The position numbers and the translations under genes were made by a program. A stretch of 64,000 nt of DNA, taken from an uncultured Bryobacteraceae bacterium. GTDB taxonomy: Bacteria > Acidobacteriota > Terriglobia > Bryobacterales > Bryobacteraceae. The notes beneath the pieces are model-generated. The model worked only from the letters and a program-made list of their open reading frames with translations. It did no database searches and was not told the DNA's origin. This document shows positions 4,427-51,253 of this stretch, piece after piece. Position 1 is the first letter of the stretch. Each line of letters starts with the position of its first letter. The DNA is taken from contig CALJAM010000011.1 in NCBI GenBank assembly GCA_938027685.1, forward strand, positions 62,001 to 126,000, given 5' to 3'.

Positions 4427-4514
4427 TCCGCTTCCTCCCGGGTGAGTTCGGTCAATTACTAAGATGATACTAAAAGGCTGAGGGCGGGTCCGCCGCGCGG
4501 GAAGGAGCACGAGC

Positions 4515-14610: not shown

Positions 14611-16263
14611 TTATGAGCCGTTAACGATGATGCCGCGCTCGTCCAGCAGCTCGCCGGTCACGCGCAGAAGGTTGAGCAAGGCGCGTCGGTAGGCGATGGT
14701 CTGCGTGACCAGGGTAGCCTGGGCATTGGTGAGGCGCGTCTGAGCTTCGAGCACGAAGTAGAGGATGCTGACTCCGAGGTCGTAGCGCTTCTGCTCGGCT
14801 TCGAAGTCTTTCTGGGCGAATTCGAGCGCCACGCGGGCCTGTTGGACGCCTGCCTTGGCGGATTCGACCTGGTTGACGGCGTTGAGGACCTCCAGGCGGA
14901 TCTGCTGCTCGAGGGCGCGTGCGCGCAAGGCATCCAACTTCTTACGCACGAGGGCGTCGGCCAGGTCGGCCTGGGCGGCGCGATCCCGGAGAGGCAGCGT
15001 GAGGGTCAGACCGAAGCGGTAAGTGGGCAGACCGAAGGTGAACAGTTGATTGAGGGCGTCACCGAAGCCGCCCGGCACCGTGCGCACGATCTGCGATTGT
15101 CCGAAGACGTTGGCTCGCTCGTAGAACCAACCGCCGCGACCGCGGGCGCTGTACTCGCCGGTGAGGCGCAAGTCGGGTTTGAGGCGGTTGGAGGCCGAGC
15201 GGATGCTGAGATCGTCGATATCGAGGCTTTGGAGTTGGGCTTTCAGGTCGGGCCGTTTGGCCAGTGCGCGTTCGACCAGCGCCTCGCGATCGAGCGGGTG
15301 CGAGTCGAGCAGGGGGGAAACGGTCTCGGTGAGAACGATGGGCAGTCGCCGGATTTGCGGATCCAGGTCGGCGCCCATCTGTCGTCGCAGGGCGTCCTCG
15401 CGCTGTGCGAGCTGGTAGCGGAACTGGGTGACCTGGATCTCGGCCGTGGCGTACTCCTGCTGCGGCCGGTAGATTTCAAGCGGTGAGAGAGCGCCGAGCT
15501 CCAGCTCACGCTGGGATCGCTTCAAGGCCGCCTCGCGCAGCTTGAGGAACTCCTCCTGGACGCGGAGGCGCTCGCGCGATTCGATCACGGCCCAGTAGGC
15601 CAACTCGGCCTGCTCGATGAGGCGCATGAGTTGGTCGCGGAGTTCGTATTCGCTGCGGCGCAACTGGCTGCGGGCGAGCATCAGGGGCAGTCGCACCAGG
15701 GAAGGGCTTCGATCCCTGAGCAAGGGTTGGGAGAAGCCGAAAGAAAGGGTCGCGTTCAGCGCGGGGTTGAAGGTGGAGAACTGGTCGTTGGAGGCGGTCT
15801 TGTTGCCGCTGAAGCCGACGTTGAAGATCGTGCCCGTCTCCAGGCGCTGGGTATAGCGGAAGTCGGCCACCTGATTGAGCTGGCTGAGCAGGTTGGCGCC
15901 CTGCAGCACGCTGGTCGTGGCGCTGCGCGTGCGCGTGCTGTTGAAGCTGGCGCTGAGCGAGGGGTCGAAGCTGCCCAGGGCGCGCAAGATGGCGTTGCGC
16001 GGGGTCTCGAGCGTCAAGCGCTGGATCTGGATTTCGGTGTTGTTGGCCAGCACCAGTTCGAGGTAGTTCCGCAGGGACAGCTCGAGGGCGCCGTTCACGA
16101 TGAAATCCTCGAAGCGGACCGGCGGCTGCAACTCCACGCGCGCCTTGGGGGCGGCGAAGTGTTCGCGGAAGTAGGAGGGCGTGGGGAAGACCGGCGCGAC
16201 GAAGTTCTGCGCCGGGAGCGTCGAGACGAAGCACAAAGCGGTTACAACTCTCCTGAGTCTCAT
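14611..16263 (-). CDS. TolC-like outer-membrane efflux protein
   Basis: 550 residues from the ATG at 16263, which opens with a signal peptide (MRLRRVVTALCFVSTLPAQ) and has GGAG seven bases upstream. An in-frame ATG at 16305 overlapping the permease stop would add 14 residues. The TolC pattern is clear: two halves of long helices (for example LNLRNYLELVLANNTEIQIQ near the start, LRDQLMRLIEQAELAYWAVIE, LVRKKLDALRARALEQQIRLEVLNAVNQVE) and LRVTGELL at the C-terminus. It forms a trimeric outer-membrane channel for the adaptor-permease system encoded upstream. It is the last gene of the five-gene operon running from 22715. Confidence 0.88.
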   Translation of the reverse strand: MRLRRVVTALCFVSTLPAQNFVAPVFPTPSYFREHFAAPKARVELQPPVRFEDFIVNGALELSLRNYLELVLANNTEIQIQRLTLETPRNAILRALGSFDPSLSASFNSTRTRSATTSVLQGANLLSQLNQVADFRYTQRLETGTIFNVGFSGNKTASNDQFSTFNPALNATLSFGFSQPLLRDRSPSLVRLPLMLARSQLRRSEYELRDQLMRLIEQAELAYWAVIESRERLRVQEEFLKLREAALKRSQRELELGALSPLEIYRPQQEYATAEIQVTQFRYQLAQREDALRRQMGADLDPQIRRLPIVLTETVSPLLDSHPLDREALVERALAKRPDLKAQLQSLDIDDLSIRSASNRLKPDLRLTGEYSARGRGGWFYERANVFGQSQIVRTVPGGFGDALNQLFTFGLPTYRFGLTLTLPLRDRAAQADLADALVRKKLDALRARALEQQIRLEVLNAVNQVESAKAGVQQARVALEFAQKDFEAEQKRYDLGVSILYFVLEAQTRLTNAQATLVTQTIAYRRALLNLLRVTGELLDERGIIVNGS

Positions 16264-16297
16264 GGAACTGCTCCGCAGCCGGGCCTGGCCCGGGTTG

Positions 16298-17554
16298 TCA
16301 TTCATACCGGATCGCCTCGATGGGATCCAGTTTGGCGGCCTGCACCGCGGGATAGATGCCGAATAGAAGCCCGATGGCGACGGAGACGCCGAAAGCCACG
16401 GCGATGGAGATGAAGGTCACCACGGTGGACCAGCCCGCAGCGGCCGCGATCACCCTGGAGAGGGTGAATCCGAAGCCGATTCCGATCAGACCCCCCACGA
16501 TGGAAATCAGGACGGCCTCGGTGAGGAACTGGCGGATGATATCGGCCTGGCGGGCGCCGATGGCGCGCCGGATGCCGATTTCCCGCGTGCGCTCGAGCAC
16601 GGTGGCCAGCATGATGTTCATGATGCCGATGCCGCCGACCAGCAGGGAAATGCCGGCGATGCAAATCATGACCACATTGAAGATGAACTGGGTGCGCCGG
16701 CGCTGCTCGAGCAGGTGAGCGGGCACGACGACGGTGAAGTCGCCGGCGTCCTTGTGGGTGGCGGTCAGGATGGCGCGCACGACGTTGGCGGTTTCGATCG
16801 AATCGACGCCTGGGGCCACCTTGATATAGATGCCGTCGATCTCGTCCTTCAGGTAACTGTTGCTGTCCTCGAAGCGCCGCATCACGGTGTTCAGGGGCGC
16901 GATCACCAGGTTGTTGCGGTTGACGACCTCCAGCCCCTCCACGTCGGTGTCGGCCACAGCCTGTTGGGAAAGCACGCCGATCACCTGCAGCCACACATCG
17001 TTAATCTTGATGTATTTGCCCACGGCGTCGTCGTAGCCCAGCAGGTTGACCTTGGCGGATTCGCCCAGCACGCAAACCGGAGCCGAACGAAGGTTTTCCT
17101 CTTCGGTGAAGAAACGTCCGGAGACGATCTTGAGGTTTCCGATCTGCTCGTAGTTGGGGAGCACGCCGATCAGCAGAGGCATCTCCTGGTTGGTTTTGGG
17201 GAGCACGCGCGTGGGCTTGAAGCGCTTGCGGGGGGTGGCCGCCTCCAGGCCCTGCACGTTTTCCAGAATGGCGCGGTAGTCGCGGAAGGTCAGGCCGGGG
17301 GAGACTGCGCGTCGGGCCTGGAGCTCGTTGCGGTCGACGGCTTCCTTGGCCTCGATGATGATGTTGTTGACGCCGAGCAGGTCGATGTAGCTCATCATTT
17401 CCTGCTGCGCGCCCGCGGTGATCGAGAGCATAGCGACCACCGCACCCACTCCGAAGATCATGCCGAGCATGGTGAGCAGGGTGCGCAGCTTGTGCACCAG
17501 GAGGCTGGAGAGCCCCATGTAAAGGTCGGGCAGGTATGCGGTGAGCACTGACAT
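16298..17554 (-). CDS. MacB-type ABC transporter permease (no ATPase domain)
   Basis: 418 residues. The N-terminal membrane helix is LRTLLTMLGMIFGVGAVVAMLSITAGAQQEM, followed by a large periplasmic domain and three C-terminal membrane segments in the FtsX arrangement, with GIMNIMLATVLERTREIGIRRAIGA as the coupling loop. Full-length MacB carries an N-terminal ATPase; here it is absent, and no ABC ATPase is encoded in the operon or the window. The protein should power or gate export from the periplasm through adaptors and TolC, using an ATPase from elsewhere. AGGAGG lies 11 bases before the ATG, and the gap to the upstream adaptor is three bases. Confidence 0.9.
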   Translation of the reverse strand: MSVLTAYLPDLYMGLSSLLVHKLRTLLTMLGMIFGVGAVVAMLSITAGAQQEMMSYIDLLGVNNIIIEAKEAVDRNELQARRAVSPGLTFRDYRAILENVQGLEAATPRKRFKPTRVLPKTNQEMPLLIGVLPNYEQIGNLKIVSGRFFTEEENLRSAPVCVLGESAKVNLLGYDDAVGKYIKINDVWLQVIGVLSQQAVADTDVEGLEVVNRNNLVIAPLNTVMRRFEDSNSYLKDEIDGIYIKVAPGVDSIETANVVRAILTATHKDAGDFTVVVPAHLLEQRRRTQFIFNVVMICIAGISLLVGGIGIMNIMLATVLERTREIGIRRAIGARQADIIRQFLTEAVLISIVGGLIGIGFGFTLSRVIAAAAGWSTVVTFISIAVAFGVSVAIGLLFGIYPAVQAAKLDPIEAIRYE

Positions 17555-17557
17555 GGT

Positions 17558-19615
17558 TTACAACCCTCCTCCGGCGCCGCCGCCGATCGGCAAGGCGCCT
17601 GACTTGGCGCCTTTCTTTTCCTGCTTGTCCTGTCCGGCGCGCGCGGTTGGATCCGACAATGCCACCAGTTCACCCGGTCGGAGGCCCTCGGCGATGACCA
17701 TGACGGACTCGCTGCGCTTGAGCGGCTTGATGAAGCGCGGTTCGAATGTGGTGTCGCGCTTTACGTAGACGACCGGCTTGCCGTCCTTCTCGAAGACGGC
17801 CTGGGCCGGCACGTAGATGGCGTTGGGGATCTTCTCGACGATGATTTCTACGTCGGCCAGCAAGCCGGGGCGCAGGAGGACTTCGAGCTGGCTGTTCTGC
17901 TCGGGTGGAGGCGGCAGCTTGGCGTTCTCAAGATCTTTTTCGCTGAACTGTTGCGAAGAGCCCATGCCGAAGCCGGGCTGGAGGTCAGGGAATCCAGGCA
18001 AGGCCCCAGGGCCACCCGCGGGCTCGCCGCCTCGCCGGCTGCCTTGCGGCGACTGGCGCTCGCCCACCGGCACCCCCATGGCCCGGCGGACCTTTTCCAT
18101 GATCTGGCGGCGCTCCTCGGGGCTGAGTTCCTCGAGCTTGCGACCGCCCAACTCCTTGTCGAGCAGCGCGCGGAACTTCTTTTGGTCTTCCGGCGACATC
18201 GCGGCGCCGGGGCCGGCCAGGGCGCCGCCCATGGCCGATCGGATTTTTTCGAAGATCTTTTGCCGCTCCTCAGGGCTGAGATCGCGCATGGAGCGGCCGC
18301 CGAGTTCCTTCTCCAACAACGCCTTCATCTTTTGGGCGTCTTCGGGCGAGAATTGTCCGCCGCCCATCATCGGGAAGGCGCCGCGGCGCTGGCGCTGCTC
18401 GCCCTCGCCGGCCTGCGGGCCGCCGCTGCCGGGGAGGCCGCCCGGGGGCCCGCCGAACAGGACCGGCATGCCGGCCGGGGCGCCGCCCGGTACGGGGCTT
18501 TCCATCATGGCCAAGGCGGGCGAGGGTTGCGCGACGGTGACCGGCTTGGAGCGATTCCGCTCGGCGGTTTCCAGGATCATGCGGATCTGCTCGGGCTTGG
18601 CGCCCAGGCCGCTCAGCAGCTCCTTCATGTCCACGGAGAAGATCACGTCGAAGCGTTTGGTGGGGTCGCCGGCCCACACGTTGGCGCTGGCAGTGCCGCT
18701 CATGGATTTGATCCTGCCGTGGAAGACCTTGTCGGGGATGGCGTCCAGGCGGATGAGCGCCTCCTGCCCCTCATGGAGGTTGGCGCGATCGATCTCGTTG
18801 ACCTTCGCCACCAATTCCATTTCGGAGAGGTCGAGCACGTCGGCGACAGGCGTGCCGGGGAAGACCTGATCGCCCTCGCGGTAGTCGGGAAGCTGCATGC
18901 CGGGGAAGTACATGCCCATGGGACGACTCTGGCGGATGGCCACCAGGCCGCTCATGGGCGCCAGCAGTTTCACCTGCATGAGGCGCTGACGCTCGCGCCT
19001 CACCTCGAGCAAGGCGCGATTGCGCCGCTCGCGCAGCACGGCGATTTCGGCTTCCGCCTGTTCCAGCCGGGACTTGATATCGCTTTCCAGTTGCTTCAAG
19101 CGTCGGCGGGCCTCCTCGAGGGTGAGCAGGTCCTTTTTGGCGTCGATGGCGGATTTCAGCTCGGCGCGCCGTACTTCCAGTTCGGCCAGGCGCACTGAGT
19201 AACGCGCCTTGAGCAGGTCCACTTGATCCTGGTTGTTGCGGATGGCCAGATCGGCCTGGGCTTTCTTGATCTGCTCTTCGATCTGTTGCAGTTCGAGTTC
19301 GCGTTCTTCGAGGCGCGAGCGGACCTCGGAATCGTCGAATTCGACGATGAGGTCCTTTTCCTTGGCGAAGGCGCCCAAGGGGGCCAGGCGGGTGATCTGG
19401 ACGGTGCCGAAGAGATTGGGGGCCACCAGCGTGGCTTGCCGGACCGCGCGCAATTCGCCGCGCGCGAAGGTGCGGATGACGACATCCCCCTTTCGGACGG
19501 GGGTTGTGGGCACTTGCACCTGGCGCTCGGGCATTTGGCGGAACAACCGCCAGACGCCATAGGCGGAGCCGGCGACGATGCCGACCAGGACGAGTCGAAA
19601 GAGAATCTTTCTCAT
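17558..19615 (-). CDS. Membrane-fusion adaptor (HlyD/MFP) with repeat-bearing insertion
   Basis: 685 residues, far longer than ordinary adaptors of about 400. Residues 1-25 are a membrane anchor. Residues 40-95 and 215-262 form the barrel-sandwich (PVRKGDVVIRTFARGEL, LLAPMSGLVAIRQSRP), with a long coiled-coil hairpin (about 95-215) between them. The beta-barrel starts at about 264 (MELVAKVNEIDRANLHEGQEA) and reaches FDVIFSVDM at 322-330. It then breaks into a Pro/Gly-rich insertion of about 245 residues with two helical repeats, and resumes at LEVLLRPGLLADVEIIV (about 578). The membrane-proximal end is AIYVPAQAVFEKDGKPVVYV. It is the third adaptor gene in a row and presumably docks the permease to the TolC-like channel. 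Confidence 0.9.
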   Translation of the reverse strand: MRKILFRLVLVGIVAGSAYGVWRLFRQMPERQVQVPTTPVRKGDVVIRTFARGELRAVRQATLVAPNLFGTVQITRLAPLGAFAKEKDLIVEFDDSEVRSRLEERELELQQIEEQIKKAQADLAIRNNQDQVDLLKARYSVRLAELEVRRAELKSAIDAKKDLLTLEEARRRLKQLESDIKSRLEQAEAEIAVLRERRNRALLEVRRERQRLMQVKLLAPMSGLVAIRQSRPMGMYFPGMQLPDYREGDQVFPGTPVADVLDLSEMELVAKVNEIDRANLHEGQEALIRLDAIPDKVFHGRIKSMSGTASANVWAGDPTKRFDVIFSVDMKELLSGLGAKPEQIRMILETAERNRSKPVTVAQPSPALAMMESPVPGGAPAGMPVLFGGPPGGLPGSGGPQAGEGEQRQRRGAFPMMGGGQFSPEDAQKMKALLEKELGGRSMRDLSPEERQKIFEKIRSAMGGALAGPGAAMSPEDQKKFRALLDKELGGRKLEELSPEERRQIMEKVRRAMGVPVGERQSPQGSRRGGEPAGGPGALPGFPDLQPGFGMGSSQQFSEKDLENAKLPPPPEQNSQLEVLLRPGLLADVEIIVEKIPNAIYVPAQAVFEKDGKPVVYVKRDTTFEPRFIKPLKRSESVMVIAEGLRPGELVALSDPTARAGQDKQEKKGAKSGALPIGGGAGGGL
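18074..18352 (-). repeat. Two tandem 42-residue protein repeats inside the adaptor
   Basis: Residues 422-463 and 473-514 of the 685-residue adaptor are near copies, 51 residues apart (DNA 18227-18352 and 18074-18199). Shared positions include FSPED/MSPED, KALLEKELGGR/RALLDKELGGR, DLSPEER/ELSPEER and FEKIRSAMGG/MEKVRRAMGV. The LSPEER plus helix pattern recalls the LTxxQ helices of periplasmic Spy/CpxP proteins; that similarity is by eye only. Confidence 0.85.
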
Positions 19616-19667
19616 GGGCGAACCTGTTCAAGCGTCAGTTTGGCGTGAACCTGGATAGTCGCTCGCC

Positions 19668-20978
19668 TCACAGCTTCTTTTTGGCGCGGCGGGCCGCCTC
19701 GATGGGGTTCTCGAGCGCGACCACCTCGCCCTCCCGCAAGCCCTTCACCACCACGATGTCGTTTTCGTTGCGCAGGCCGACCTCGATGACGCGGATCTGA
19801 AACTGCTGTCCACGCTGCACCCAGACCGCCGGTTTGCCCTGGTGCAGGAAACTGGCGCGGGCGGGGATGAGCAGCACGTTGGGATGGCTTTCGATGATGA
19901 TTTCAGCCGTGGCGCTCATGCCGGGTCGCAGGCGGGCATCGACATTCTTCAGGGTGGCGTAGGCGGGGAAATTTTTCTCCGACAGCCCGAAACCGCGGAA
20001 AGTCAGCGCGGCGATGGGGCTGATCCAGTCCAGCTCGGCCTGGAATTCCTTGTCGGCCACCGCGTCGACGCGAACGCGGACCGGCTGGCCGAGCTTGATG
20101 CGGCCCCGGTCCACTTCTTCGAGCTTCATTTCGACGCGCATGCTGGACAGATCGGGTATTTCGGCGATGGGTGCACCGGTCCAGGCGCGGTCGCCTTCCT
20201 TGAAAGGCGGCGGCATGGAGCCGAAGGAGCCGCCCGCGCGGAAGTTGGGCAGGATGTTGACGATGCCGTCGATGGGCGCGCGGATCACCATCATGCTGAG
20301 ATAGCTCTTGGCGCGCTCCATGTCGCGGACGGCCTTGTTTTTGCTTTGCTGGAGCCGCTCGAGATCAGCCTGCTGGGTGACCTTATGGGATTTGATGATG
20401 GTCTTGACCTGGCTGAGGTTGCCCTCGGAGATGCCGACGTTGATCCAGTTCTTGGCTCCCTCGATCTCGGAGAGGATTTCAGCCTTGCTGGCCTCGAGTT
20501 TGGCACGCTCGAGGTCGTATTCGGCCTGCATCAAGCTCATCGCATCCTGCTCGTCAATGATGCGGTGCGAGGCTTGGGTCTGCACGATCTGGCTGTCGGC
20601 GGTGCGCACGCTGGTGGCGCGCTCCAGGTAGTATTGCTCCTGCTGGGCGGTATCGAACTCGATCACCACGTCACCCTTTTTGACGGGTTTGCCGGACTCG
20701 GCCAGGCGCACGATGCGGGGATCGGGAACCTGGGGGGCGGTGAGCACCACGGAGCGTGTGCTGCGCACTTCGCCGCGGGCACGCACGCTGATGACGAAAT
20801 CGCCGCGGCGCACACGGGCGGTGGGGATCTCGACTTCGGTCACGCCCGCGTAATAGTAGGCGGCGTAGCCGCCGCCTCCCAACAACACCAGCGCGAGGCT
20901 CCAGCCGATGATCTTGTTGCGGCGGGAAGCGGAGGACTTCCCCAACCTGCTCTTGGGCTTCAGATCCTTCGAGGCCAC
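19668..20978 (-). CDS. Membrane-fusion adaptor (HlyD/MFP), standard architecture
   Basis: 436 residues. A cytoplasmic basic N-terminus (KSRLGKSSASRRNK) precedes one membrane helix (IIGWSLALVLLGGGGYAAYY). It is followed by the first barrel-sandwich half (RGDFVISVRARGEVRSTRSVVL), a helical hairpin (about 120-240), the second half (VIRAPIDGIVNILPNFRAGG), a beta-barrel (MRVEMKLEEVDRGRIKLGQPV) and a membrane-proximal domain (VLLIPARASFLHQGKPAVWV). It belongs to the RND/MacA-type adaptors that bridge inner-membrane transporter and TolC. It follows the 577-residue adaptor by three bases and precedes the 685-residue one by 52 bases. All three differ in sequence, so they are not recent duplicates. Confidence 0.9.
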   Translation of the reverse strand: MASKDLKPKSRLGKSSASRRNKIIGWSLALVLLGGGGYAAYYYAGVTEVEIPTARVRRGDFVISVRARGEVRSTRSVVLTAPQVPDPRIVRLAESGKPVKKGDVVIEFDTAQQEQYYLERATSVRTADSQIVQTQASHRIIDEQDAMSLMQAEYDLERAKLEASKAEILSEIEGAKNWINVGISEGNLSQVKTIIKSHKVTQQADLERLQQSKNKAVRDMERAKSYLSMMVIRAPIDGIVNILPNFRAGGSFGSMPPPFKEGDRAWTGAPIAEIPDLSSMRVEMKLEEVDRGRIKLGQPVRVRVDAVADKEFQAELDWISPIAALTFRGFGLSEKNFPAYATLKNVDARLRPGMSATAEIIIESHPNVLLIPARASFLHQGKPAVWVQRGQQFQIRVIEVGLRNENDIVVVKGLREGEVVALENPIEAARRAKKKL

Positions 20979-20981
20979 GGC

Positions 20982-22715
20982 TCATTTTCTCCCTGCGGGC
21001 GGCCGTTCCAGTGCGACGATTTCGCCCGGGCGCAGGCCCGAGCGCACGGCCGCCACCAAATGATTCCTCAAGCCTAGTTCCACGGGGCGGCGTTCCCAGC
21101 CGCCGGGTTTCTGGACGAAGACGTAGGGCTGCCCGTCCGGCGAATCGCGGAAGACGCCGGCCAGCGGGACCAGAACCGCCTCATCCTCGCTGTCCAGCAC
21201 CACGTCGGCGCTGACGGAAAGATCGGGAACCACGCGGGGATCGAGCTTCTCGAGCTTCAGAACGACGGGGACTTCCTTGACGTAGGCGGCTCGGAATCCG
21301 CCGGAGACGGGCATGGGCGCGATCGCGTGTACGCGGGCGGGCAGTTCCAGATCGGGGAAGGCATCGAAGCGGACGCGTGCGTGCGCTCCGATGCGGATGC
21401 GTTCGACATCGACCTGGTTGGCCCGAGCCTGCACCAGCATGGAAGTCAAATCCACGATGCGCATGAAGAGCATCCCGGGGGCGAGCTGATCTCCGGCCTG
21501 GATCCGCGCCATTTCGCCGCTGCGGAAAATGCTTTCCATGACCACGATCCCATCGATGGGGGCACGGATGAGAAGACGCTCCGCGTTGGCTTCCGCGCGC
21601 TTGAGCTCGTTGCGCGCCTGCTCGCGCTCCAGTTCTGCGATGCGGCGGTCGGCGGCGTAAGTGATCTCCTTGAGGCTGACCTCCTTGAGCAATTGCTTGT
21701 AGCGGGCCTCGGCGTGCTCGGCGATCAGCTTGAGCCGTTCGGTCATGATGGCGGACTGTACGGGGACGGTCTTGAGATCGATCTGAGCCTTCTCAAGGTC
21801 GGCCTTGGCGGATTCGATGGATTGCTGGTGCGCCTTGCGTTCGACCTCGAGATCGGCCTCGAGGATGCGCATGCCCGCCTCGACCTGATCCATAGTGGCG
21901 CGGTAGTCATCCAGGCGCGTCAACATGTACTGGCGGTCGAACTCGGCCACGATGTCGCCCTTTTTGACGAAGGTGCCCGGCGGGACGACCTTCTGGAGGG
22001 TGAGTGTGAAATCACTGCCGCCGCGCGAGAGGCCCAATGCGAAGCCGCCTCCGCCCGTGCCGCCGCCACCGCCCCGACCTCCTGCGCCGCTGGCGGAGCC
22101 GCCGCCTCCTCCGCCGCCGATTCGCGCCATCGTCACCGAACCCACTGAACGCGCGAGGGAGCCGGTTTGGCGCCCGCCGCCACCGCCCAAGTCGGCTGAT
22201 GCGCCGCCACCCTCGCCTGCGCCCGAGGCGGCGGTGGACGCTGTACTGGTGCCGCTGGTGGCGGCCCGGGAGGCTGTGGTTGCGCCGCTTGAACCGGTCG
22301 AGCCGGCGGAGCCTGTGGTGCCGGCGAACGTGCCCGAGATGGAATAGGTGCGCGACGTGCGTGAAGCGATGCTAACGTTCAAGCCTCCGCCGCCGCGGCT
22401 GCCGTGCAACTGGGGCGCCAGCAGGCCGGCGTACCGTTCCGGGGCGGTAACGCCGGTCAACCGAATCGTTTCTTCGACCCGCCCACGTTGGGCCGTAGCG
22501 GTGCGGAGGGGCGTAGGCCTCTGTCCGACGGCTTGGGGACCTCGCGAGGATTTCCAGCTCCACCAGACTGCGACCCCGGCCGCCCCTAGGATGCCGATGG
22601 CCAACAGGAGCAGCCATTTACGCCTGCCAGCGCTGCTTTGAGTCTGCCTGTGTTGACTGGTCATGGTGCTTGGCCCGCCCGCAAGATGGAGCCCGGCCGG
22701 GTGTCGGGACTCCAT
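20982..22715 (-). CDS. Membrane-fusion adaptor with Gly/Ser/Thr low-complexity insertion
   Basis: 577 residues from the first ATG. An ATG at 22664 (product starting MTSQHRQ) is an equally possible start, and neither has a good ribosome site. One membrane helix (KWLLLLAIGILGAAGVAVWW) precedes GRVEETIRLTGVTAPERYAG. A run of about 128 residues rich in Gly, Ser and Thr (105-232) follows, after which the barrel-sandwich continues at FTLTLQKVVPPGTFVKKGDIVAEFD. Coiled-coil hairpin, IRAPIDGIVVMESIFRSGE, beta-barrel and VLVPLAGVFRDSPDGQPYVFV follow as usual. It is the first gene of the adaptor-permease-channel operon. A periplasmic docking role is inferred. Confidence 0.88.
   Translation of the reverse strand: MESRHPAGLHLAGGPSTMTSQHRQTQSSAGRRKWLLLLAIGILGAAGVAVWWSWKSSRGPQAVGQRPTPLRTATAQRGRVEETIRLTGVTAPERYAGLLAPQLHGSRGGGGLNVSIASRTSRTYSISGTFAGTTGSAGSTGSSGATTASRAATSGTSTASTAASGAGEGGGASADLGGGGGRQTGSLARSVGSVTMARIGGGGGGGSASGAGGRGGGGGTGGGGFALGLSRGGSDFTLTLQKVVPPGTFVKKGDIVAEFDRQYMLTRLDDYRATMDQVEAGMRILEADLEVERKAHQQSIESAKADLEKAQIDLKTVPVQSAIMTERLKLIAEHAEARYKQLLKEVSLKEITYAADRRIAELEREQARNELKRAEANAERLLIRAPIDGIVVMESIFRSGEMARIQAGDQLAPGMLFMRIVDLTSMLVQARANQVDVERIRIGAHARVRFDAFPDLELPARVHAIAPMPVSGGFRAAYVKEVPVVLKLEKLDPRVVPDLSVSADVVLDSEDEAVLVPLAGVFRDSPDGQPYVFVQKPGGWERRPVELGLRNHLVAAVRSGLRPGEIVALERPPAGRK
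22020..22403 (-). repeat. Low-complexity Gly/Ser/Thr-coding stretch within the adaptor gene
   Basis: This encodes residues 105-232 of the 577-residue adaptor. It includes Ser/Thr/Ala/Gly runs and then glycine runs of five to seven. It interrupts the first barrel-sandwich strand pair, where ordinary adaptors have a short loop. Confidence 0.85.
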
Positions 22716-43589: not shown

Positions 43590-43602
43590 GGGGCGCCCTC
43601 AG
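43586..43602. terminator. Hairpin across the pnp stop codon, between convergent genes
   Basis: CTGAGGG-gcg-CCCTCAG is a perfect 7-base stem that includes the pnp stop and reaches the stop of the convergent isomerase-like gene (43599). It could serve both strands. There is no clear T run on either side. Confidence 0.4.
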
Positions 43603-44414
43603 GCACCCAGGGCGGCCAGAACACCGCGCATGTAAGCGAAGGACTTGGCCATCCCCAGGAACGGGTCGTCCGGATCGATCTCGTACTCGAGGTTGACGCT
43701 GCCCCGATAATTGATTTTCCGCAGGGCGCGGAAGATGCCGACGATGGGCAGCACGCCCTCGCCGACCGGGCAGTCCGATCCGCGCTTTTTGGTATCGCGC
43801 AGGTCCTTGATGTGGACGTCGAGCACGCGGGGGCCGGCGCGCAAGATGGATTCGACCGGATCGGTTCCGGTGCGCGCCGTGTGACCGACATCCACGCACA
43901 GGCCGACGCGGGGATCCATATCGCGGATGACCTCGAGCGCCGACTCGGGGGTGGGGAAGTGCTTATCTTCGGGGCCGTGATTGTGCACGGCGACCTTGAT
44001 GTTGTACTGCTTCACGAACCGCTCGATGCGGGGCAGCGTCTGCCGCGTGGGCGCGATCACCATGAGCGGCATGCCGCAGTCGCGCGCGTAGTCGAAGTAG
44101 AAGCGGATGTCGGCGTCGTCGTCCTTTTGTAGGGAGATGGTGCCGCCGCCGACGATGGTGAGGCCTGCATCCTCGAACTCCTTGCGGCCGGCTGCACGGG
44201 CTTCGGGCGAGTCCGCGTAGCGCAGGTGGAACTCTTTGATGCAGACATACCGCACGCCGAGTTTCCTGATGATCTCGATAGCCTGGGCGCGCGTGAACTT
44301 GCGCAACGAGTAACTGGCCACGCCGAGAGTGAAATCGCCCGCCGGTGCGGCGACGCCTCGCGCGGCCGGAAGCGCGACAGCGGGTGCGGAAACAAAAGCA
44401 CGTCGAGTGATCAT
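43599..44414 (-). CDS. Exported sugar phosphate isomerase/epimerase-like TIM barrel
   Basis: 271 residues. MITRRAFVSAPAVALPAARGV is a Tat-like signal with a paired arginine. The barrel reads LGVASYSLRKFTRAQAIEIIRKLG, YVCIKEFHL, PLMVIAPTRQTLPRIERFV, VAVHNHGPEDKHFP, GLCVDVGHTARTGTDP, VLDVHIKDL and VNLEYEIDPDDPF, with the usual metal-binding His/Asp/Glu set. It belongs to the same superfamily as the protein at 40038 but is clearly different in sequence. Substrate unknown. It converges on pnp (gap 9 bases) and follows the ygfZ block on the same strand. Confidence 0.87.
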   Translation of the reverse strand: MITRRAFVSAPAVALPAARGVAAPAGDFTLGVASYSLRKFTRAQAIEIIRKLGVRYVCIKEFHLRYADSPEARAAGRKEFEDAGLTIVGGGTISLQKDDDADIRFYFDYARDCGMPLMVIAPTRQTLPRIERFVKQYNIKVAVHNHGPEDKHFPTPESALEVIRDMDPRVGLCVDVGHTARTGTDPVESILRAGPRVLDVHIKDLRDTKKRGSDCPVGEGVLPIVGIFRALRKINYRGSVNLEYEIDPDDPFLGMAKSFAYMRGVLAALGA

Positions 44415-45812: not shown

Positions 45813-46445
45813 ATGATTCACGAAATCCTGGCCGTGGGGCCGCTGGCCTGCAACTGCTCGATCTTCGGCGACGAGGACAGGGGAGAGGCCATCGTGGTGG
45901 ATCCGGGCGATGACGTGGAGGAGATCGAACGGATCCTGCGTCGGTACGACTTGCGGGCCAAGGCGATCGTCGTCACGCACGCTCACATCGATCACGTCGG
46001 CGGTGCGGCTCGCCTGCGCGCCTCTACGAACGCTCCCGTGTTCCTGCACCCGGACGATTTGCAGCTGTTGGGGCAGCTGGAAATGCAGGCGGCGTGGTTG
46101 GGTATGACGCCGCCGCCGGCAGTGCCCGTCGACGGGGAGCTGTCGGAGGGGCGCCGCTTGGAGTTGGGGGCGGCGAGCTTCGAGGTGTTGCACACGCCCG
46201 GACATACTCCGGGGAGCGTCTGCCTGTGGCTGCCGGCCGAGAAGAAGCTGGTGGCAGGCGACACGCTGTTTCGGGATTCAATCGGGCGGACGGATTTGCC
46301 CGGCGGCGACGGCCGCCGGATCCTGCACTCGATCCGGGAGAAACTCCTATGCCTGCCGGAGGAGACGTTCGTGATTCCGGGTCACGGGCCGTGCACCACG
46401 CTCGAGCGCGAGCGACGTTTCAACTATTTTCTGCAACATCTCTGA
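45813..46445 (+). CDS. Metallo-beta-lactamase-fold hydrolase (glyoxalase II-like)
   Basis: 210 residues. The dinuclear zinc motif HxHxDH is in VVTHAHIDHVGGAARL near residue 56. The second histidine site is LHTPGHTPGSVCLW, the bridging aspartate is in LVAGDTLF, and the last histidine is in FVIPGHGP. Residues before the motif (VVDPGDDVEEIERIL) match the hydroxyacylglutathione hydrolase-like class often annotated as YcbL/GloB-like. It probably hydrolyses a thioester such as an S-acylthiol; the substrate is not known. The start ATG lies within the CATG shared with the opposite strand. Confidence 0.9.
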   Translation: MIHEILAVGPLACNCSIFGDEDRGEAIVVDPGDDVEEIERILRRYDLRAKAIVVTHAHIDHVGGAARLRASTNAPVFLHPDDLQLLGQLEMQAAWLGMTPPPAVPVDGELSEGRRLELGAASFEVLHTPGHTPGSVCLWLPAEKKLVAGDTLFRDSIGRTDLPGGDGRRILHSIREKLLCLPEETFVIPGHGPCTTLERERRFNYFLQHL

Positions 46446-46451
46446 CGTGGA

Positions 46452-47006
46452 TTACGGCTCGTCCATGAAGCGGTAGGCGATCATATGGCAGACAACGAGG
46501 TGTGCGTCTTCGATCCGTCCCATGTGCGGCTCCGGGACGTGAATCACCAACTGTGCCAGCCGCGCCAGTTGTCCGCCATCCCGCCCGGTGAGCCCGATCG
46601 TCCGACAGCCGACGGCATTGGCGTACTCGATGGCGCGCAACACGTTGGGCGAATTGCCCGATCCGCTGATGCCCATCACCAGATCGCCCGGGCGCGCGAA
46701 GTTCCGAAGCTGTTCGACGAAGACGGCCTCGTAGCTGACGTCGTTGGCGTAGGCGGTGACGGTGGGCAGCGAATCCGTGAGGGCCAGGATGCGGAAGCGC
46801 TGGGGGCGGCCGTAGCTGGCGCCTTTGACCATGTCGGTGGTGAAATGCGAAGCGGTCGCTGCGCTGCCGCCGTTGCCGCAGACGAAGATCTGCCGATCTT
46901 CCTGCCGGGCCTGGCGGAACCACTCAACGGCCTCCTCGACCTTTGTTACGTCAATAGCGGAAAGGGCCGCCAGCAGGGCCTGGCGGTACCGTTCTGCGTA
47001 GCTCAT
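46452..47006 (-). CDS. SIS-domain sugar isomerase (GmhA-like), last gene of five-gene operon
   Basis: 184 residues. The SIS core is FVCGNGGSAATASHFTTDM near residue 45, with GDLVMGISGSGNSPNVLRAI near 110 and TIGLTGRDGGQL. Unlike the SIS protein at 2128, it keeps the canonical GNGGSA phosphate-binding loop of phosphoheptose isomerase. GAGGAGG lies just two bases before the ATG, and the ATG overlaps the ROK kinase stop by four bases. Its probable job is ketose/aldose-phosphate isomerisation in the pathway encoded by this operon. Whether the substrate is a heptose or another sugar is unknown. Confidence 0.88.
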   Translation of the reverse strand: MSYAERYRQALLAALSAIDVTKVEEAVEWFRQARQEDRQIFVCGNGGSAATASHFTTDMVKGASYGRPQRFRILALTDSLPTVTAYANDVSYEAVFVEQLRNFARPGDLVMGISGSGNSPNVLRAIEYANAVGCRTIGLTGRDGGQLARLAQLVIHVPEPHMGRIEDAHLVVCHMIAYRFMDEP

Positions 47007-47851
47007 ATCCTCCTCGCCAGCGCCAGTGCGCCGTAGAGCACGCTATCGTCGCCCAAGGCGGCGGGAACCACGTCGATGCGCGCCCGCGACCAGGGTGTGA
47101 TCTGGAGGCGGAGTTCGGCGCGCAGCGGCTCGAACAGTGCGTCGCCGGCTTTGCTGATGCCTCCGCCGATGACGATGCGCGCCGGGTTCAGCAGCATGAT
47201 GCAAGCCTTCAGCCCGAGGGCCAGGTCCACGACGTACCGTCGTACGAACTCCGGGTCGCGGAGCAGTTCGTGCGCCGGTCGGCCGTGATCCGGCTCCATC
47301 CAGATGCCTGCGCACATGCGCTCCAGGCAACCGTGGGCGCCGCAGAGGCAGCGGGGCCCGTCGGGTCGTACGGTGAGGTGACCGATTTCGCCTGCGTAAG
47401 AGTCGGCGCCGCGATACACCTGGCCGCCGATGACGATGCCGCCGCCGATGCCCGTGGAAAGCGTCATGTAGAAGAGCGGATCGAAGCCAACGCCGGCGCC
47501 GTAGGTCGCTTCGCCCAAGGCGCCCGCGTTGGCATCGTTGTCCATGACGGCCGGCAAGGCGAGCTCTTGGCGCACCCAGTCGACGAGCGGGAAGTCCTGC
47601 CAGCCGCCCACGTGGGTGGAGAGGGCCACGCGCTGGGCCGCGAAATTCACGGGCCCTCCGAAACCGATGCCGCAGCGATGCAAGCGCCAGCGCCGGCGCC
47701 ACTCGCCGACGATGGCCCGGATCTGCGCCAGCATCCACTCGCGGCCGCCCTCGCGGTCGGTGGCGCGCGATGCGCGCTCCGCCATGCGCTCGTCTTCGAA
47801 GACGGCGATGGAGAACTTGGTGCCGCCGATATCGATGGCCAGCGTGTTCAT
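47003..47851 (-). CDS. ROK-family sugar kinase
   Basis: 282 residues. The ATP-binding N-terminus is LAIDIGGTKFSIAVF and the catalytic aspartate is in VMDNDANAGALGEA. STGIGGGIVIGGQVYRGADSYAGEIGHLTV follows, then the ROK zinc motif CLCGAHGCLERMCAG. No helix-turn-helix domain precedes the kinase, so it is an enzyme rather than a repressor. ROK kinases phosphorylate hexoses or N-acetyl-amino sugars. Both ends overlap neighbours by four bases (ATGA) in the operon. The acceptor sugar is unknown; the partner PfkB kinase suggests two successive phosphorylations or two alternative sugars. Confidence 0.93.
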   Translation of the reverse strand: MNTLAIDIGGTKFSIAVFEDERMAERASRATDREGGREWMLAQIRAIVGEWRRRWRLHRCGIGFGGPVNFAAQRVALSTHVGGWQDFPLVDWVRQELALPAVMDNDANAGALGEATYGAGVGFDPLFYMTLSTGIGGGIVIGGQVYRGADSYAGEIGHLTVRPDGPRCLCGAHGCLERMCAGIWMEPDHGRPAHELLRDPEFVRRYVVDLALGLKACIMLLNPARIVIGGGISKAGDALFEPLRAELRLQITPWSRARIDVVPAALGDDSVLYGALALARRI

Positions 47852-48837
47852 GAACGCGCTGCCGCCTCCGCAGCCAGCACTTCCTCCGGGGACGCCGTGC
47901 CCGTTCCCTTTTTCATGATGGTGACCGAGGCCACCAGGTTGCCGAAGCGGGCGGCGGCCACGGGATCGCGCGTTACCGCCAGCGCGAGCGCGGCGCCCGC
48001 TGAAAAGGAGTCGCCCGCCCCGCAGATATCCACAGGCTTTTCGATGCGGCGGGTGGGCACGGGCGTCTGGCCGGCTTCGTCGACGACCACGACGCCGTCG
48101 CCGCCGCGCGTGACGATGACAAGCGGGCTTTCGACGTGCGCGCGCAACCGCTGGTAGTTCACTTCGCCGAACAGGCGCAGGCAGGCCGCGTCGGCTTCCT
48201 GCTGGTTGGGCTTCAGGATGAGTTTGCGGAATTCATGGATGCGGAGCCGCGAATCGGCCCATACGATCTTTTCCGGATGGCGGGCAGTCAGCTCGGCCAG
48301 CAGGGCGCGCATGGCGGGCGTGACGACAGCGGCCTGGCCGGTTTCCGCCTGATCGGCGACCAGGATGACGTCGAACTGCGGGAAGGCTTCCTCGAGCGCG
48401 GCGAGCAGGCGTCGCTCGACGGCTTCGGAGAGCGGGCGCTGATTGATGAAGTCGACGCGCGGCCGGTCCTCGATTCCGGTCTCGCGGTTGATGAGCTTGG
48501 TGTAGGTGAACGTGGGCAGGCCGGGTTCGCACAGCATGCGCTCGACGCCCACGCCGCGCTCGCGCAGCGCGCGCAGCAGCTCGTAGCCGAAGCCGTCGTC
48601 GCCCACCACGCCGAGGGTTTCGATGCGGCCGCAGCCCAGGGCGGCGAGATTGTTGCTCACTGTGCCTCCGGCGCCCGGCGTCACCTCCGTGGCTACGACC
48701 GCGATGCGGGGGATACCGGTTTCACGCGAGGGCTCGGAGGCAGCCGGGTCATAGGTGCACCAGCGATCGAGGCAGATGTCGCCGACCACCAGCGCGGAAA
48801 GGTGCGGGAAGCGTGCGAGGATCTGTGCCGTGGTCAC
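47848..48837 (-). CDS. PfkB-family kinase resembling heptose-7-phosphate 1-kinase (HldE N-domain type)
   Basis: 329 residues with a GTG start that overlaps the upstream stop (GTGA). ALVVGDICLDRWCTYDP is the family N-terminus, GAGGTVSNNLAALG lies near residue 55, and KLILKPNQQEA and LVIVTRGGDGVVVV are in the second half. The anion-hole/catalytic motif is DICGAGDSFSAGAAL, with cysteine where HldE usually has threonine. The overall pattern resembles the beta-heptose-7-phosphate kinase half of HldE more than ribokinase. No nucleotidyltransferase half is attached or nearby. In this operon it probably phosphorylates the intermediate shared with the SIS and HAD enzymes. Confidence 0.85.
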   Translation of the reverse strand: MTTAQILARFPHLSALVVGDICLDRWCTYDPAASEPSRETGIPRIAVVATEVTPGAGGTVSNNLAALGCGRIETLGVVGDDGFGYELLRALRERGVGVERMLCEPGLPTFTYTKLINRETGIEDRPRVDFINQRPLSEAVERRLLAALEEAFPQFDVILVADQAETGQAAVVTPAMRALLAELTARHPEKIVWADSRLRIHEFRKLILKPNQQEADAACLRLFGEVNYQRLRAHVESPLVIVTRGGDGVVVVDEAGQTPVPTRRIEKPVDICGAGDSFSAGAALALAVTRDPVAAARFGNLVASVTIMKKGTGTASPEEVLAAEAAARS

Positions 48838-49808
48838 CGGTCCTCCTCCCGCAGCAGGCGCCAGAGGGCGGGAATCGTGGCGCGGTGGTCGCCGCAGAAA
48901 TAGAAGCTCTCGCCGCCGTCAGCCACGGTGCGGACGAGGATGGTCTTGTGGGGGCGGAAGTAGTAGCCGGGATCGGTTTTGGGCAGCTCGCGACGGTAGT
49001 CGCCGCGAATGGGCACGATGTCGAAGACGGCGGTGGCGAAATGGCGGATCACGCGGCCTTCCTGGTGCGCCACGTTACGCGCCATGGCCAGCGCTTTAAG
49101 GTACACTTCAGGGGCCATCACCGCAGAGCCGAAAGCCATCATGACGCCTCCTTCCAGCCGTTCCACGGAGCGCGCGAAGATGAGGAAGTCGCGGTAGGCG
49201 GCCTCGCCGAGCGCGGCGCCGTCGCAATTGGGATGTTCGTGGATGATGTCGTAGCCGATGCCCACGTGCACGGTGGCGGGAAGCGCCAGGCGGTACGCCG
49301 CCGCCAGCAGACTGAGCTCGCGGTGCGGGTAGTTGCCGGCCAGAATGCGCCGACCGACGTTCTCTCCGAGGCCCAGCCCCAGCGCGGCGGCTTCCCGAAT
49401 CCATTCGTTCAGCTCGCCCGTCTCCACCCATAGACCGAATTGGCCCTCCGCGATGTAGCGGGCCACGCTTTCGGTGGTAGCGCCGATGCGGGCGAGTTCG
49501 TAGTCGTGGATCAGGCAGGCCCCGTTCATGGCCAGGTGCGTAAGCCAGCCGAGCTCCATGAGGTCGATGAGGTGACGGCTGACGCCCGCGCGGATCACGT
49601 GGGCGCCCATCATGAGGATGCGGGCGGCGCCCCGCTCGCGGGCGGCACGCAGGCGAGAGGCCAAGGCGGGAAGCTCCGGGTGCTGGAAAGGCGGGGCAGG
49701 TTCGTCCAGGCGCAGCCAGTGCTCGAGGGTGAGATCATGGCGGCGTTCGGCGAGCGGCTTCAGTCGCAGCCGCCGACGGTCGAAGAGCTCGTAGCGCGAG
49801 GCGCTCAT
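48834..49808 (-). CDS. Deoxyhypusine-synthase-like protein in a sugar-kinase operon
   Basis: 324 residues. The order of conserved blocks follows deoxyhypusine synthase: ILMMGAHVIRAGVSRHLIDLM (residues 64-84), WLTHLAMNGACLIHDYELA (88-106), FGLWVETGELN (124-134), ATVHVGIGYDIIHEHPNCDG (178-197), GGVMMAFGSAVMAPE (220-234) and the C-terminal FRPHKTILVRTV...IPALWRLL. K288 in RPHK falls where the catalytic lysine of the human enzyme (SWGK) would align by eye. Known relatives move an aminobutyl group from spermidine to eIF5A or to a polyamine, using NAD. Its place among sugar kinases is odd. The ATG overlaps the HAD gene stop by four bases. Confidence 0.75.
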   Translation of the reverse strand: MSASRYELFDRRRLRLKPLAERRHDLTLEHWLRLDEPAPPFQHPELPALASRLRAARERGAARILMMGAHVIRAGVSRHLIDLMELGWLTHLAMNGACLIHDYELARIGATTESVARYIAEGQFGLWVETGELNEWIREAAALGLGLGENVGRRILAGNYPHRELSLLAAAYRLALPATVHVGIGYDIIHEHPNCDGAALGEAAYRDFLIFARSVERLEGGVMMAFGSAVMAPEVYLKALAMARNVAHQEGRVIRHFATAVFDIVPIRGDYRRELPKTDPGYYFRPHKTILVRTVADGGESFYFCGDHRATIPALWRLLREEDR

Positions 49809-50611
49809 GATCCGAACAGTATCGCGAGCAGTTGATCGAGGCAGAGGTAATTGGGGATGATCAGATCCGCGCCCACCCCGATCAGGCGCTTGCGCTTCCA
49901 CTCGTCCACTTTCTGGCAGGCGGGTTCGTCGGTGGCCACGCCGACCGCCACGCCGCCCACCGCCTTGACGTTTTCGATTTCGACGTAGCCGTCGCCGAAG
50001 CCCAGCAGGTCGTCGCCCCGGCATTCGGCGGCCTGAATCATGCGCTGAATCAGGATGGCCTTGGAGAAGCTCTTGTAATCGTCCAGCGCGCCCCAGACGC
50101 CGCCGTCGAAATAGCGGTCGATATCGAGCAGGCGCGCCTCTTCCCGGGCGTACTCCTGATCGGTTCCGCTGGCAAGATACATTTTCAGGCCGCGTTGTTT
50201 CAATGCCTCGAGCAGGGCCCTGGCCCCGGGGACCAGGTACCGGTCGGGAGGCGCCTGGCCGGTGCGCAGGGCCTCGCGCCGGTCCTTGATCTTCTCGTGC
50301 AGCCGTTCCAAGTACATTTTCTTGTAAACCAGCGGGTCCAGAGGCCTGCCGCCGCGCAGCTCCACCTGTCGCGCCAGCTCGATCATCTGATAAATGGTCT
50401 GCTTGCCGGTGAGGCGAGCCACGTAGTCCTCCACGATGGATCTGAGTTCCTGCTCAGTTTCGCCGGTTTTGAGCTCGAGCAGGATCTCCACCATCATGGG
50501 CACCATGACATTGACCCACCCGGAACGGATCAGCGAGAGCGTGCCGTCGAAATCGAACAGGACCACGCGGGCATGCCGGGCGGAGACGCCCGTTCGCACG
50601 ATTTCGATCAT
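49805..50611 (-). CDS. HAD-superfamily phosphatase, first gene of five-gene operon
   Basis: 268 residues. Motif I is VVLFDFDGTLSLIRSGW (nucleophile and general acid aspartates), the helical cap spans about 35-115, motif II is LASGTDQEYAREEA, and motif IV contains LLGFGDGYVEIENVKAVGG. It resembles beta-phosphoglucomutase/phosphoglycolate phosphatase-type HAD proteins and has no zinc motif, so it is not a GmhB homologue. It probably removes a phosphate from a sugar phosphate made by the operon kinases; this is inferred. It heads the operon, divergent from the CYTH gene across a 60-base gap. No strong promoter is visible there. Confidence 0.87.
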   Translation of the reverse strand: MIEIVRTGVSARHARVVLFDFDGTLSLIRSGWVNVMVPMMVEILLELKTGETEQELRSIVEDYVARLTGKQTIYQMIELARQVELRGGRPLDPLVYKKMYLERLHEKIKDRREALRTGQAPPDRYLVPGARALLEALKQRGLKMYLASGTDQEYAREEARLLDIDRYFDGGVWGALDDYKSFSKAILIQRMIQAAECRGDDLLGFGDGYVEIENVKAVGGVAVGVATDEPACQKVDEWKRKRLIGVGADLIIPNYLCLDQLLAILFGS

Positions 50612-50671
50612 GAGTCTTCTATTGTGCCACGTGCGCGTCGGTCGGCCCCTGTTATGCTCGGTAGGCTAGCG

Positions 50672-51253
50672 ATGAAAGAGGCTGTGGGCTCGCGGGAGGT
50701 CGAGATCAAGCTTGCCGTGGCGAGCGTGGGAGAGGGGCGTCGTCTGCTGCGCGCGCACGGTTTCCGCCGTGTGCACCGGCGGATGTTTCAGGACGACACG
50801 GTGCTCGACGACGCCCGACGGAGCCTGAAGCGGACCGGCTGCCTGCTTCGCCTGCGGCGCAGCGGCGCAAGGGCCTGGCTCACCTACAAAGGGCCCGCAG
50901 AGCCCGGTCGTCACAAGGAGCGGGAGGAGATCGAGATCCTGCTGACGGCACGCGGGTTGACTGCGGCCGCGCAGATCCTCGCGCGGCTAGGGTTCCATCC
51001 GGTTTTCCGTTACCAGAAATTTCGTACCGAATACCGACGGGACGGCGAAGCGGGTCTGGTCGCGCTGGATGAGACGCCCATTGGGGTTTTCCTCGAACTG
51101 GAGGGCTCGCCGGCGTGGATCGATCGGACCGCACAGCGGCTCGGTTTCTCTCCCTCCGACTACATCACGGCCACCTACGCCGACCTTTACCTCGAGCATT
51201 GCAAGCGCATCGGGGGCAAGCCGGATGAGATGGTTTTCGAGGGGCGCAGCTGA
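50672..51253 (+). CDS. CYTH-domain protein (class IV adenylate cyclase-like / triphosphate tunnel)
   Basis: 193 residues from the ATG at 50672 (GGTAGG upstream); an in-frame ATG six codons earlier overlaps a candidate -10 (TATGCT, 50653-50658). The tunnel motif ExExK appears as REVEIKLAV. Further basic and acidic tunnel residues are in LLRLRRSG, AWLTYKGP, HKEREEIEI and FRYQKFRTEYRR, and the C-terminal strand is GVFLELEG. CYTH proteins bind triphosphates and act as adenylate cyclase CyaB, thiamine triphosphatase or tripolyphosphatase. Which activity applies is not decidable by eye. It sits just upstream of a TonB receptor gene on the same strand, 26 bases apart. Confidence 0.88.
   Translation: MKEAVGSREVEIKLAVASVGEGRRLLRAHGFRRVHRRMFQDDTVLDDARRSLKRTGCLLRLRRSGARAWLTYKGPAEPGRHKEREEIEILLTARGLTAAAQILARLGFHPVFRYQKFRTEYRRDGEAGLVALDETPIGVFLELEGSPAWIDRTAQRLGFSPSDYITATYADLYLEHCKRIGGKPDEMVFEGRS

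Follow-up and report, generated by a model that had tools for sequence, protein, structure and literature searches.

A five-gene operon in an uncultured Bryobacteraceae bacterium links a GSU2086-family protein with a predicted deoxyhypusine synthase fold to heptose-type sugar enzymes

The DNA analyzed here (the window) is a stretch of 64,000 nucleotides from an uncultured Bryobacteraceae bacterium of the phylum Acidobacteriota (assembly GCA_938027685.1, contig CALJAM010000011.1, positions 62,001 to 126,000), and the subject of this study is an operon of five genes on its minus strand. All five open reading frames (ORFs) were confirmed in the ORF listing of the window, running from 50611 to 46452. 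The first encodes a HAD-family phosphatase of 268 amino acids (49805–50611; Pfam Hydrolase, 53 bits). It is followed by a protein of the GSU2086 family (48834–49808; NCBIfam NF052581), referred to here as "subfamily 1" and predicted to have the fold of deoxyhypusine synthase (DHS) and ornithine cyclodeaminase; a PfkB-family sugar kinase (47848–48837) nearest to HldA (NCBIfam TIGR02198); a ROK-family sugar kinase (47003–47851; Pfam ROK, 190 bits); and, as the last gene, a GmhA-like SIS-domain sugar-phosphate isomerase (46452–47006; NCBIfam PRK13936). An earlier annotation made from the sequence alone (the original prediction) had named the HAD, PfkB, ROK, and SIS families, and Pfam and NCBIfam bore these names out. 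The four 4-base start/stop overlaps that it had described are present as well: three read ATGA (HAD/GSU2086, 49805–49808; PfkB/ROK, 47848–47851; ROK/SIS, 47003–47006) and one reads GTGA (GSU2086/PfkB, 48834–48837).

The operon is flanked upstream by a divergent gene with a CYTH domain (frame 50609–51253, plus strand) and downstream by a convergent gene of the metallo-beta-lactamase fold (45813–46445, plus strand). Judged by position alone, the five genes would therefore make up the whole transcription unit. A scan for promoters and terminators gave results at about chance level.

The second protein scored 383.5 bits against the GSU2086-family model (cut-off 250), which states no function; the family is uncharacterized. 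In the original prediction it was called DHS-like, a description that stands for the fold and falls for the family. The window protein had no match to Pfam DS (PF01916, cut-off 27 bits) at E values up to 1, and the genuine DHS of the host genome, the sole DS match in a search of that genome, is encoded on another contig (G000:C34). Six other GSU2086-family members do reach the Pfam DS cut-off, at 28–31 bits, and a profile comparison with 15 sequences of the DHS family from Acidobacteriota gave an E value of 9e-8 over 253 columns with a probability of 94. The proposed comparison of the predicted structure with DHS was run on an AlphaFold model with a mean pLDDT of 94.2, the input alignment comprising the window protein and 62 of the 80 relatives described below, and it recovered the DHS fold. 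In VIA-align the best matches of the model were AgrE/ArgZ (Z 19.3–20.3), together with the archaeal LOR/SDH protein 3C2Q (Z 19.2) and DHS entries (Z 16.2–19.3, 236–268 residues aligned, root-mean-square deviation 3.4–4.1). Foldseek put the same families on top, and the AgrE and DHS entries among the fold matches include complexes with nicotinamide adenine dinucleotide (NAD).

The window protein is alike to the ornithine cyclodeaminase domain of ArgZ/AgrE in that this is its best fold match, with a weak match over residues 49–110 and an HDxE stretch in both; it differs in scoring far under the cut-offs of the corresponding models (TIGR00300, 15.0 bits, cut-off 410.8; PF21570, 18.7 bits, cut-off 27) and in having no arginine dihydrolase part. 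With the deoxyhypusine and homospermidine synthases it has in common the fold and an aligned stretch with an HD motif, whereas their family model leaves it unmatched and its gene partners are others. The protein is thus predicted to have the DHS/ornithine cyclodeaminase fold, yet by sequence it belongs to the GSU2086 family and not to the deoxyhypusine synthases. An HDxE stretch is also common to the GSU2086 family and an archaeal-type LOR/SDH-like relative of ornithine cyclodeaminase at another locus (L004, 907–2184; G000:C38).

In the hhalign comparison with DHS, K277 falls on the SWGK stretch of the catalytic lysine, and the near-invariant pair E274 and K277 aligns to the Glu/Lys stretch of DHS; this is a weakly aligned part of the profile match, and K288 is another candidate. 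The residues R22, H70, H101, D102, E104, E113, E129, H181, D187, D207, E234, K238, R244, D263, R285, and R293 are among those invariant in both alignments, a set that would be suited to a phosphorylated polyol. Among the papers searched, we found none linking the DHS fold or the GSU2086 family to sugar chemistry, and literature searches for GSU2086, for DHS with heptose, and for heptose genes with radical SAM and transketolase gave nothing on function.

The partners of this protein point to seven-carbon sugars. For the PfkB kinase, the best NCBIfam model was that of HldA (TIGR02198; 138 bits, cut-off 345 not reached) and the closest solved relative was HldA 4E84 (E 6e-16); its G273-A-G-D276 motif is at least 95% conserved in 40 aligned rows. 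The isomerase scored 131.2 bits against phosphoheptose isomerase PRK13936 (cut-off 276) and 120.7 bits against the GmhA model TIGR00441 (cut-off 209.45). Its best solved relative is a phosphoheptose isomerase (E 1.5e-30), and every one of the 15 solved relatives in the list is either a phosphoheptose isomerase or DiaA. Both the kinase and the isomerase are relatives that score under the equivalog cut-offs. When the window isomerase was aligned with 15 neighbors of at least 90 bits, D58, E166, D167, and H174 were retained in the 16 rows. The matching GmhA positions are Glu65, Gln172, Glu173, and His180, which would suggest a related, non-identical active site. The HAD phosphatase had no GmhB or HAD-IIIA model among its seven NCBIfam matches (E up to 0.01). 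D20, D22, S148-G149-T150, K184, and G206-D207 are invariant in the window phosphatase and 38 relatives at the same position (39 of 42 rows aligned), and these relatives retain the catalytic residues.

Gene neighborhoods were read at 80 loci, the best 80 of 580 relatives from one scan of genome contigs; the proteins are 52–75% identical, gene starts were placed approximately, and some neighbors are lost at contig ends. The loci come from Acidobacteriota, Planctomycetota, Chloroflexota, Armatimonadota, Bacillota, and other groups. A HAD gene lies directly upstream in 41 loci and a PfkB gene directly downstream in 41, with both present in 38; at least 600 bases of flank were available on the HAD side in 75 loci and on the PfkB side in 72. 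None of 406 genes located more than four places away was a HAD or PfkB relative of at least 60 bits (two ROK, one SIS, and one GSU2086 were found in the same set). The HAD-GSU2086-PfkB arrangement is far beyond chance, and the expectation that the genes belong together and keep their order in relatives was confirmed for this core. The exact order HAD-GSU2086-PfkB-ROK-SIS was present in only four of the 80 loci (L035, L041, L043, and L065). Six of the 38 loci with HAD and PfkB have both SIS and ROK nearby, seven have SIS, three have ROK, and 22 have neither. The GSU2086/PfkB junction is a 4-base overlap in 17 of 41 related loci. In another Acidobacteriota genome (L210) the order is SIS, ROK, a phosphofructokinase-like gene, HAD, GSU2086, and PfkB; the phosphofructokinase-like gene between ROK and HAD (4338–5618) was read by eye only.

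A second arrangement, with an adenylyltransferase-kinase fusion or an HldC-like gene within three genes, occurs in 20 of the 80 loci. One example has SIS and GmhB (L104), and others have radical SAM enzymes, split transketolases, NeuB, or aminotransferases. On the Solidesulfovibrio plasmid pDCAR1 (L115), a PfkB-type kinase, the GSU2086-family gene, and SIS are followed by three radical SAM genes; this plasmid-borne glycan cluster also holds transketolase and pseudaminic-acid-type genes. The search for the GSU2086 family gave two matches in plasmid records and none in phage records. A quick tree of 90 rows, in which 32 of 87 inner branches are weakly supported, placed three changes between the two arrangements and gave them no direction. 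Loci with the fusion from Lachnospiraceae fall among the Bacillota of the HAD/PfkB arrangement, so the GSU2086 family accompanies heptose-type kinases in separate parts of the tree. Neither arrangement was seen in 13 of the 80 loci, some of which are cut by contig ends.

Consecutive locus tags in Geobacter sulfurreducens, GSU2084 to GSU2087, comprise, judged by their published names, the phosphatase, the kinase/adenylyltransferase, and the isomerase of ADP-heptose synthesis together with GSU2086. GSU2084 has been named a heptose bisphosphate phosphatase (PMC3495685), and a study on electrode-growth genes lists transposon values of -3.1 for GSU2085 (hldE), -3.2 for GSU2086, and -3.7 for GSU2087 (gmhA) (PMC5585712). 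Polar effects may explain this likeness. The Geobacter locus resembles the operon in having the same protein family and the same partner types (heptose kinase, phosphatase, and isomerase). It differs in its HldE-type kinase/adenylyltransferase, and no ROK is named in the extracts of the published accounts; GSU2086 is uncharacterized there too. HldD is described as the NAD-dependent C-6'' epimerase of the known ADP-heptose pathway (PMC10948575). The operon has the isomerase, O-1 kinase, and phosphatase types of this pathway (GmhA, HldE as HldA plus HldC, GmhB, HldD), whereas its isomerase and kinase score well under the cut-offs, its phosphatase has no GmhB match, and HldC and HldD were not found in the genome.

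Within the Acidobacteriota another branch of the family prevails, as 59 of the 60 loci read with long flanks belong to subfamily 2. The host genome itself has a paralog of the GSU2086 family (389.4 bits) beside a gene that reads as uvrA, and at several other subfamily-2 loci the neighbors read, by eye, as queA, tilS, and ftsH. An SIS gene was found upstream, on the same strand and within 500 bases, in eight of 30 subfamily-2 loci. It was within three genes in 14 of 59 loci, a set partly selected for SIS, and in four of the 39 that were not so selected; the first 20 contexts included all eight loci known to have SIS. At one locus (L174) three genes follow one another with overlaps: the subfamily-2 gene, the gene of an HldA-type kinase (313 bits, cut-off 345), and an HldC gene above its cut-off (198 bits).

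Among 297 Acidobacteriota genomes, the GSU2086 family was present over the cut-off in 93, HldD over the cut-off in 66 (at most seven candidates scored per genome), and HldC at E 1e-35 in 265. HldC occurred in 90 of the 93 genomes with GSU2086 and in 65 of the 66 with HldD. Our results showed that GSU2086 and HldD rarely occur together: both were over the cut-off in two of the 297 genomes versus 20.7 expected (Fisher p 3e-10, a genome-level value inflated by shared ancestry). At genus level both were found in two of 165 labelled genera (p 0.001), one of which holds them in different genomes. In one family of 18 genomes, all with HldC, 11 had HldD only, six had GSU2086 only, none had both, and one had neither. 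In many Acidobacteriota, subfamily 2 may fill the place of HldD.

In the host genome, HldD (TIGR02197) had no match at E 1e-40 among the seven of 15 candidates that were scored. HldC (TIGR02199) had no match at E 1e-3 in the host assembly, which is 96.7% complete; it was present in both sampled genomes of the host's taxonomic family, so that an assembly gap and a loss are both possible. These two genomes (G289 and G187) have one full-length GSU2086-family member each, that of G289 belonging to subfamily 2, and the operon is therefore patchy even among close relatives. A GmhA-like protein was found at E 1e-10 in all 16 genomes tested and over the cut-off in none. HldC was detected at E 1e-3 in 30 of the 45 genomes with the HAD/PfkB arrangement (14 over the cut-off) and in 32 of 35 other genomes (19 over the cut-off).

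A second heptose-type cluster without a GSU2086 protein, overlooked in the original prediction, lies elsewhere in the window, on the minus strand (869–4510; from NCBIfam and the ORFs). It comprises an HddA-like GHMP kinase (3443–4510), an HddC/MurU-like nucleotidyltransferase (2730–3446), a GmhA-like SIS protein (2128–2733), and a GmhB-like HAD-IIIA phosphatase (about 1589–2140), all below their equivalog cut-offs, and a transaldolase (869–1588), the sole member above its cut-off. It adjoins a sugar epimerase-like gene and a glycosyltransferase gene. Like the pathway considered for the operon, the GDP-heptose (HddA/HddC) route leads from heptose 7-phosphate to a nucleotide sugar; it differs in using a GHMP kinase, and the cluster of this kind in the window has no GSU2086 protein. 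That no nucleotidyltransferase is present, as originally stated, holds for the operon, and the assembly also lacks HldC. Beyond the operon the picture is different: an HldC match at E 1e-3 is present in 30 of the 45 HAD/PfkB genomes, HldC lies close by in the second arrangement, and the window itself encodes an HddC/MurU-type nucleotidyltransferase about 43 kb from the operon.

The heptose setting of the operon is well supported by the linkage with heptose-type kinase, phosphatase, and isomerase genes in two arrangements, in agreement with the heptose-like route first suggested, and the most likely product of the operon is an activated seven-carbon sugar. Sedoheptulose 7-phosphate would be isomerized by the SIS protein to an aldoheptose 7-phosphate, which the GSU2086 protein, with NAD in its DHS-type fold, would briefly oxidize and reduce again with changed stereochemistry. 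Phosphorylation at O-1 would fall to the PfkB kinase and removal of the phosphate at the far end to the HAD phosphatase, and the sugar 1-phosphate would be activated by a nucleotidyltransferase encoded elsewhere; the ROK kinase might serve the entry of unphosphorylated sugar. In DHS and in the AgrE cyclodeaminase, the substrate is first oxidized with bound NAD and the hydride is returned at the end. If this logic were moved to a heptose phosphate, the simplest reaction would be an epimerization. We tentatively propose, with a probability of about 0.43, a heptose-phosphate pathway parallel to the ADP-heptose route in which the GSU2086 protein performs a transient NAD-dependent oxidation and reduction, probably an epimerization. 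A new NAD-type step in the DHS fold had been one of the two roles first considered, and it is the reading that best suits the predicted fold and the sugar partners. More doubtful is the wider claim that GSU2086-family proteins are NAD-dependent epimerases of heptose or heptose phosphate on the DHS fold and stand in, so far unrecognized, for HldD in many bacteria, the operon of the window being a variant for a different heptose stereoisomer.

Several results weigh against the proposed pathway. The use of NAD is inferred from the fold alone, for which the Foldseek TM-scores were modest (about 0.44–0.51 by query length), and the sugar substrate, the reaction, and the order of steps are likewise inferred. 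The full gene order is rare, as noted above, some HAD/PfkB loci sit among sugar-catabolism genes, and the host assembly has no match to HldC. Two related genomes (G299 and G304) have, in addition to the operon kinase, an HldA over the cut-off, so the operon does not simply represent the cell's ordinary ADP-heptose route; in several other relatives the protein most like HldA is the operon kinase. In subfamily 2, 45 of the 59 loci have no SIS within three genes and most show no heptose-type neighbor. The rare co-occurrence with HldD was seen in a phylum where nearly all of the loci read are of subfamily 2; the window protein is of subfamily 1 with different loops, and its function may therefore differ. 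At family level, GSU2086 and HldD were both found in three of 78 labelled families, which is not significant (p 0.13). In 20 further genomes an HldD-like protein matched at E 1e-40 but fell short of the cut-off; ten of these also have GSU2086, the HldD-like protein scoring 141–157 bits there. With this looser threshold both occur in 12 genomes versus 26.9 expected (p 2e-5). Finally, of the 265 genomes with HldC, 112 lack both HldD and GSU2086, which indicates that the step is often dispensable.

The linkage data suit any reaction on the same sugar, and the GSU2086 protein could instead carry out another NAD-type reaction in the same heptose-phosphate pathway. It might, for example, deoxygenate the sugar, oxidize it to a keto or acid form, or close a ring to give a C7 cyclitol. 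The radical SAM enzymes, split transketolase subunits, NeuB, and aminotransferases at loci of the second arrangement indicate that unusual sugars are being built there, and ROK kinases also occur in C7-cyclitol pathways. The rare co-occurrence with HldD, on the other hand, points to an equivalent step, and an isomerase with an O-1 kinase would suit an aldose better than a cyclitol; we regard such other reactions as rather unlikely. Another reading assigns the five enzymes to the breakdown or salvage of an exotic imported sugar into central metabolites. The neighbors of HAD/PfkB loci (n = 83) include six AP_endonuc_2, five Gfo/Idh, and four SDR proteins, a Chloroflexota plasmid locus has a sugar ATP-binding cassette importer, Gfo/Idh, and DeoC upstream, and the operon contains a ROK kinase. 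Yet Pfam and NCBIfam identified no transporter and no aldolase among the operon's own genes, no extra partner is common to more than six of the 83 neighbors, and the gene content of the second arrangement suggests biosynthesis. The pairing of a kinase with a phosphatase would also make sense if a phosphate is shifted between the two ends of a sugar. We consider salvage unlikely.

Much less probable is that an ordinary operon of sugar kinases has taken up an enzyme of amino acid or unrelated metabolism, the linkage being regulatory only. In favor of this, the predicted structure matches the ornithine cyclodeaminase part of AgrE/ArgZ best, and separate family members stand beside genes that read, by eye, as tRNA modification, protease, and repair genes. 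A recruited enzyme of this kind is hard to reconcile with a linkage that is kept with two kinase types in many phyla, and, polar effects permitting, with the Geobacter transposon data, in which GSU2086 resembles hldE and gmhA. Least probable of all is the polyamine-type chemistry of the original prediction, in which the DHS-like protein attaches an aminobutyl group to a sugar phosphate. The DHS fold (Z 16–19), the profile match with E274 and K277 on the Glu/Lys stretch in its weakly aligned part, and the six family members that reach the Pfam DS cut-off speak for it. It was not borne out by the window protein, which has no DS match beside a separate true DHS in the genome, or by its genetic partners, which are sugar enzymes: no polyamine family was among the 25 commonest Pfam families of neighbors in either set of loci (top 25 of 90 and top 25 of 102). 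The tally outside the HAD/PfkB arrangement covered 108 of 122 proteins, with L097 left out as a near copy of L088.

A link to the nickel-pincer cofactor was considered and rejected. Among the annotated neighbors, a LarC-like gene stood beside the operon at a single locus, in Ornatilinea apprima (L051, 10057–11241, between PfkB and ROK), and none of the papers searched covers both ornithine cyclodeaminase and the nickel-pincer cofactor. Elsewhere in the window, an outer-membrane efflux protein, a MacB/FtsX permease, and two HlyD-type fusion proteins are encoded in a row on the minus strand (14611–22715), with a frame of 685 amino acids between the efflux genes that has no Pfam match at E 1e-10. 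A TIM-barrel protein that resembles xylose isomerase, and whose N terminus looks signal-like by eye, is encoded at 43599–44414 (minus strand), near a YgfZ/GcvT-like gene.

If the proposed epimerization is right, a widespread family known only by a locus tag would gain a function, and a fold known from polyamine and amino acid enzymes would gain sugar chemistry. The family would also provide a candidate for the missing epimerase step of heptose synthesis in many bacteria without HldD.

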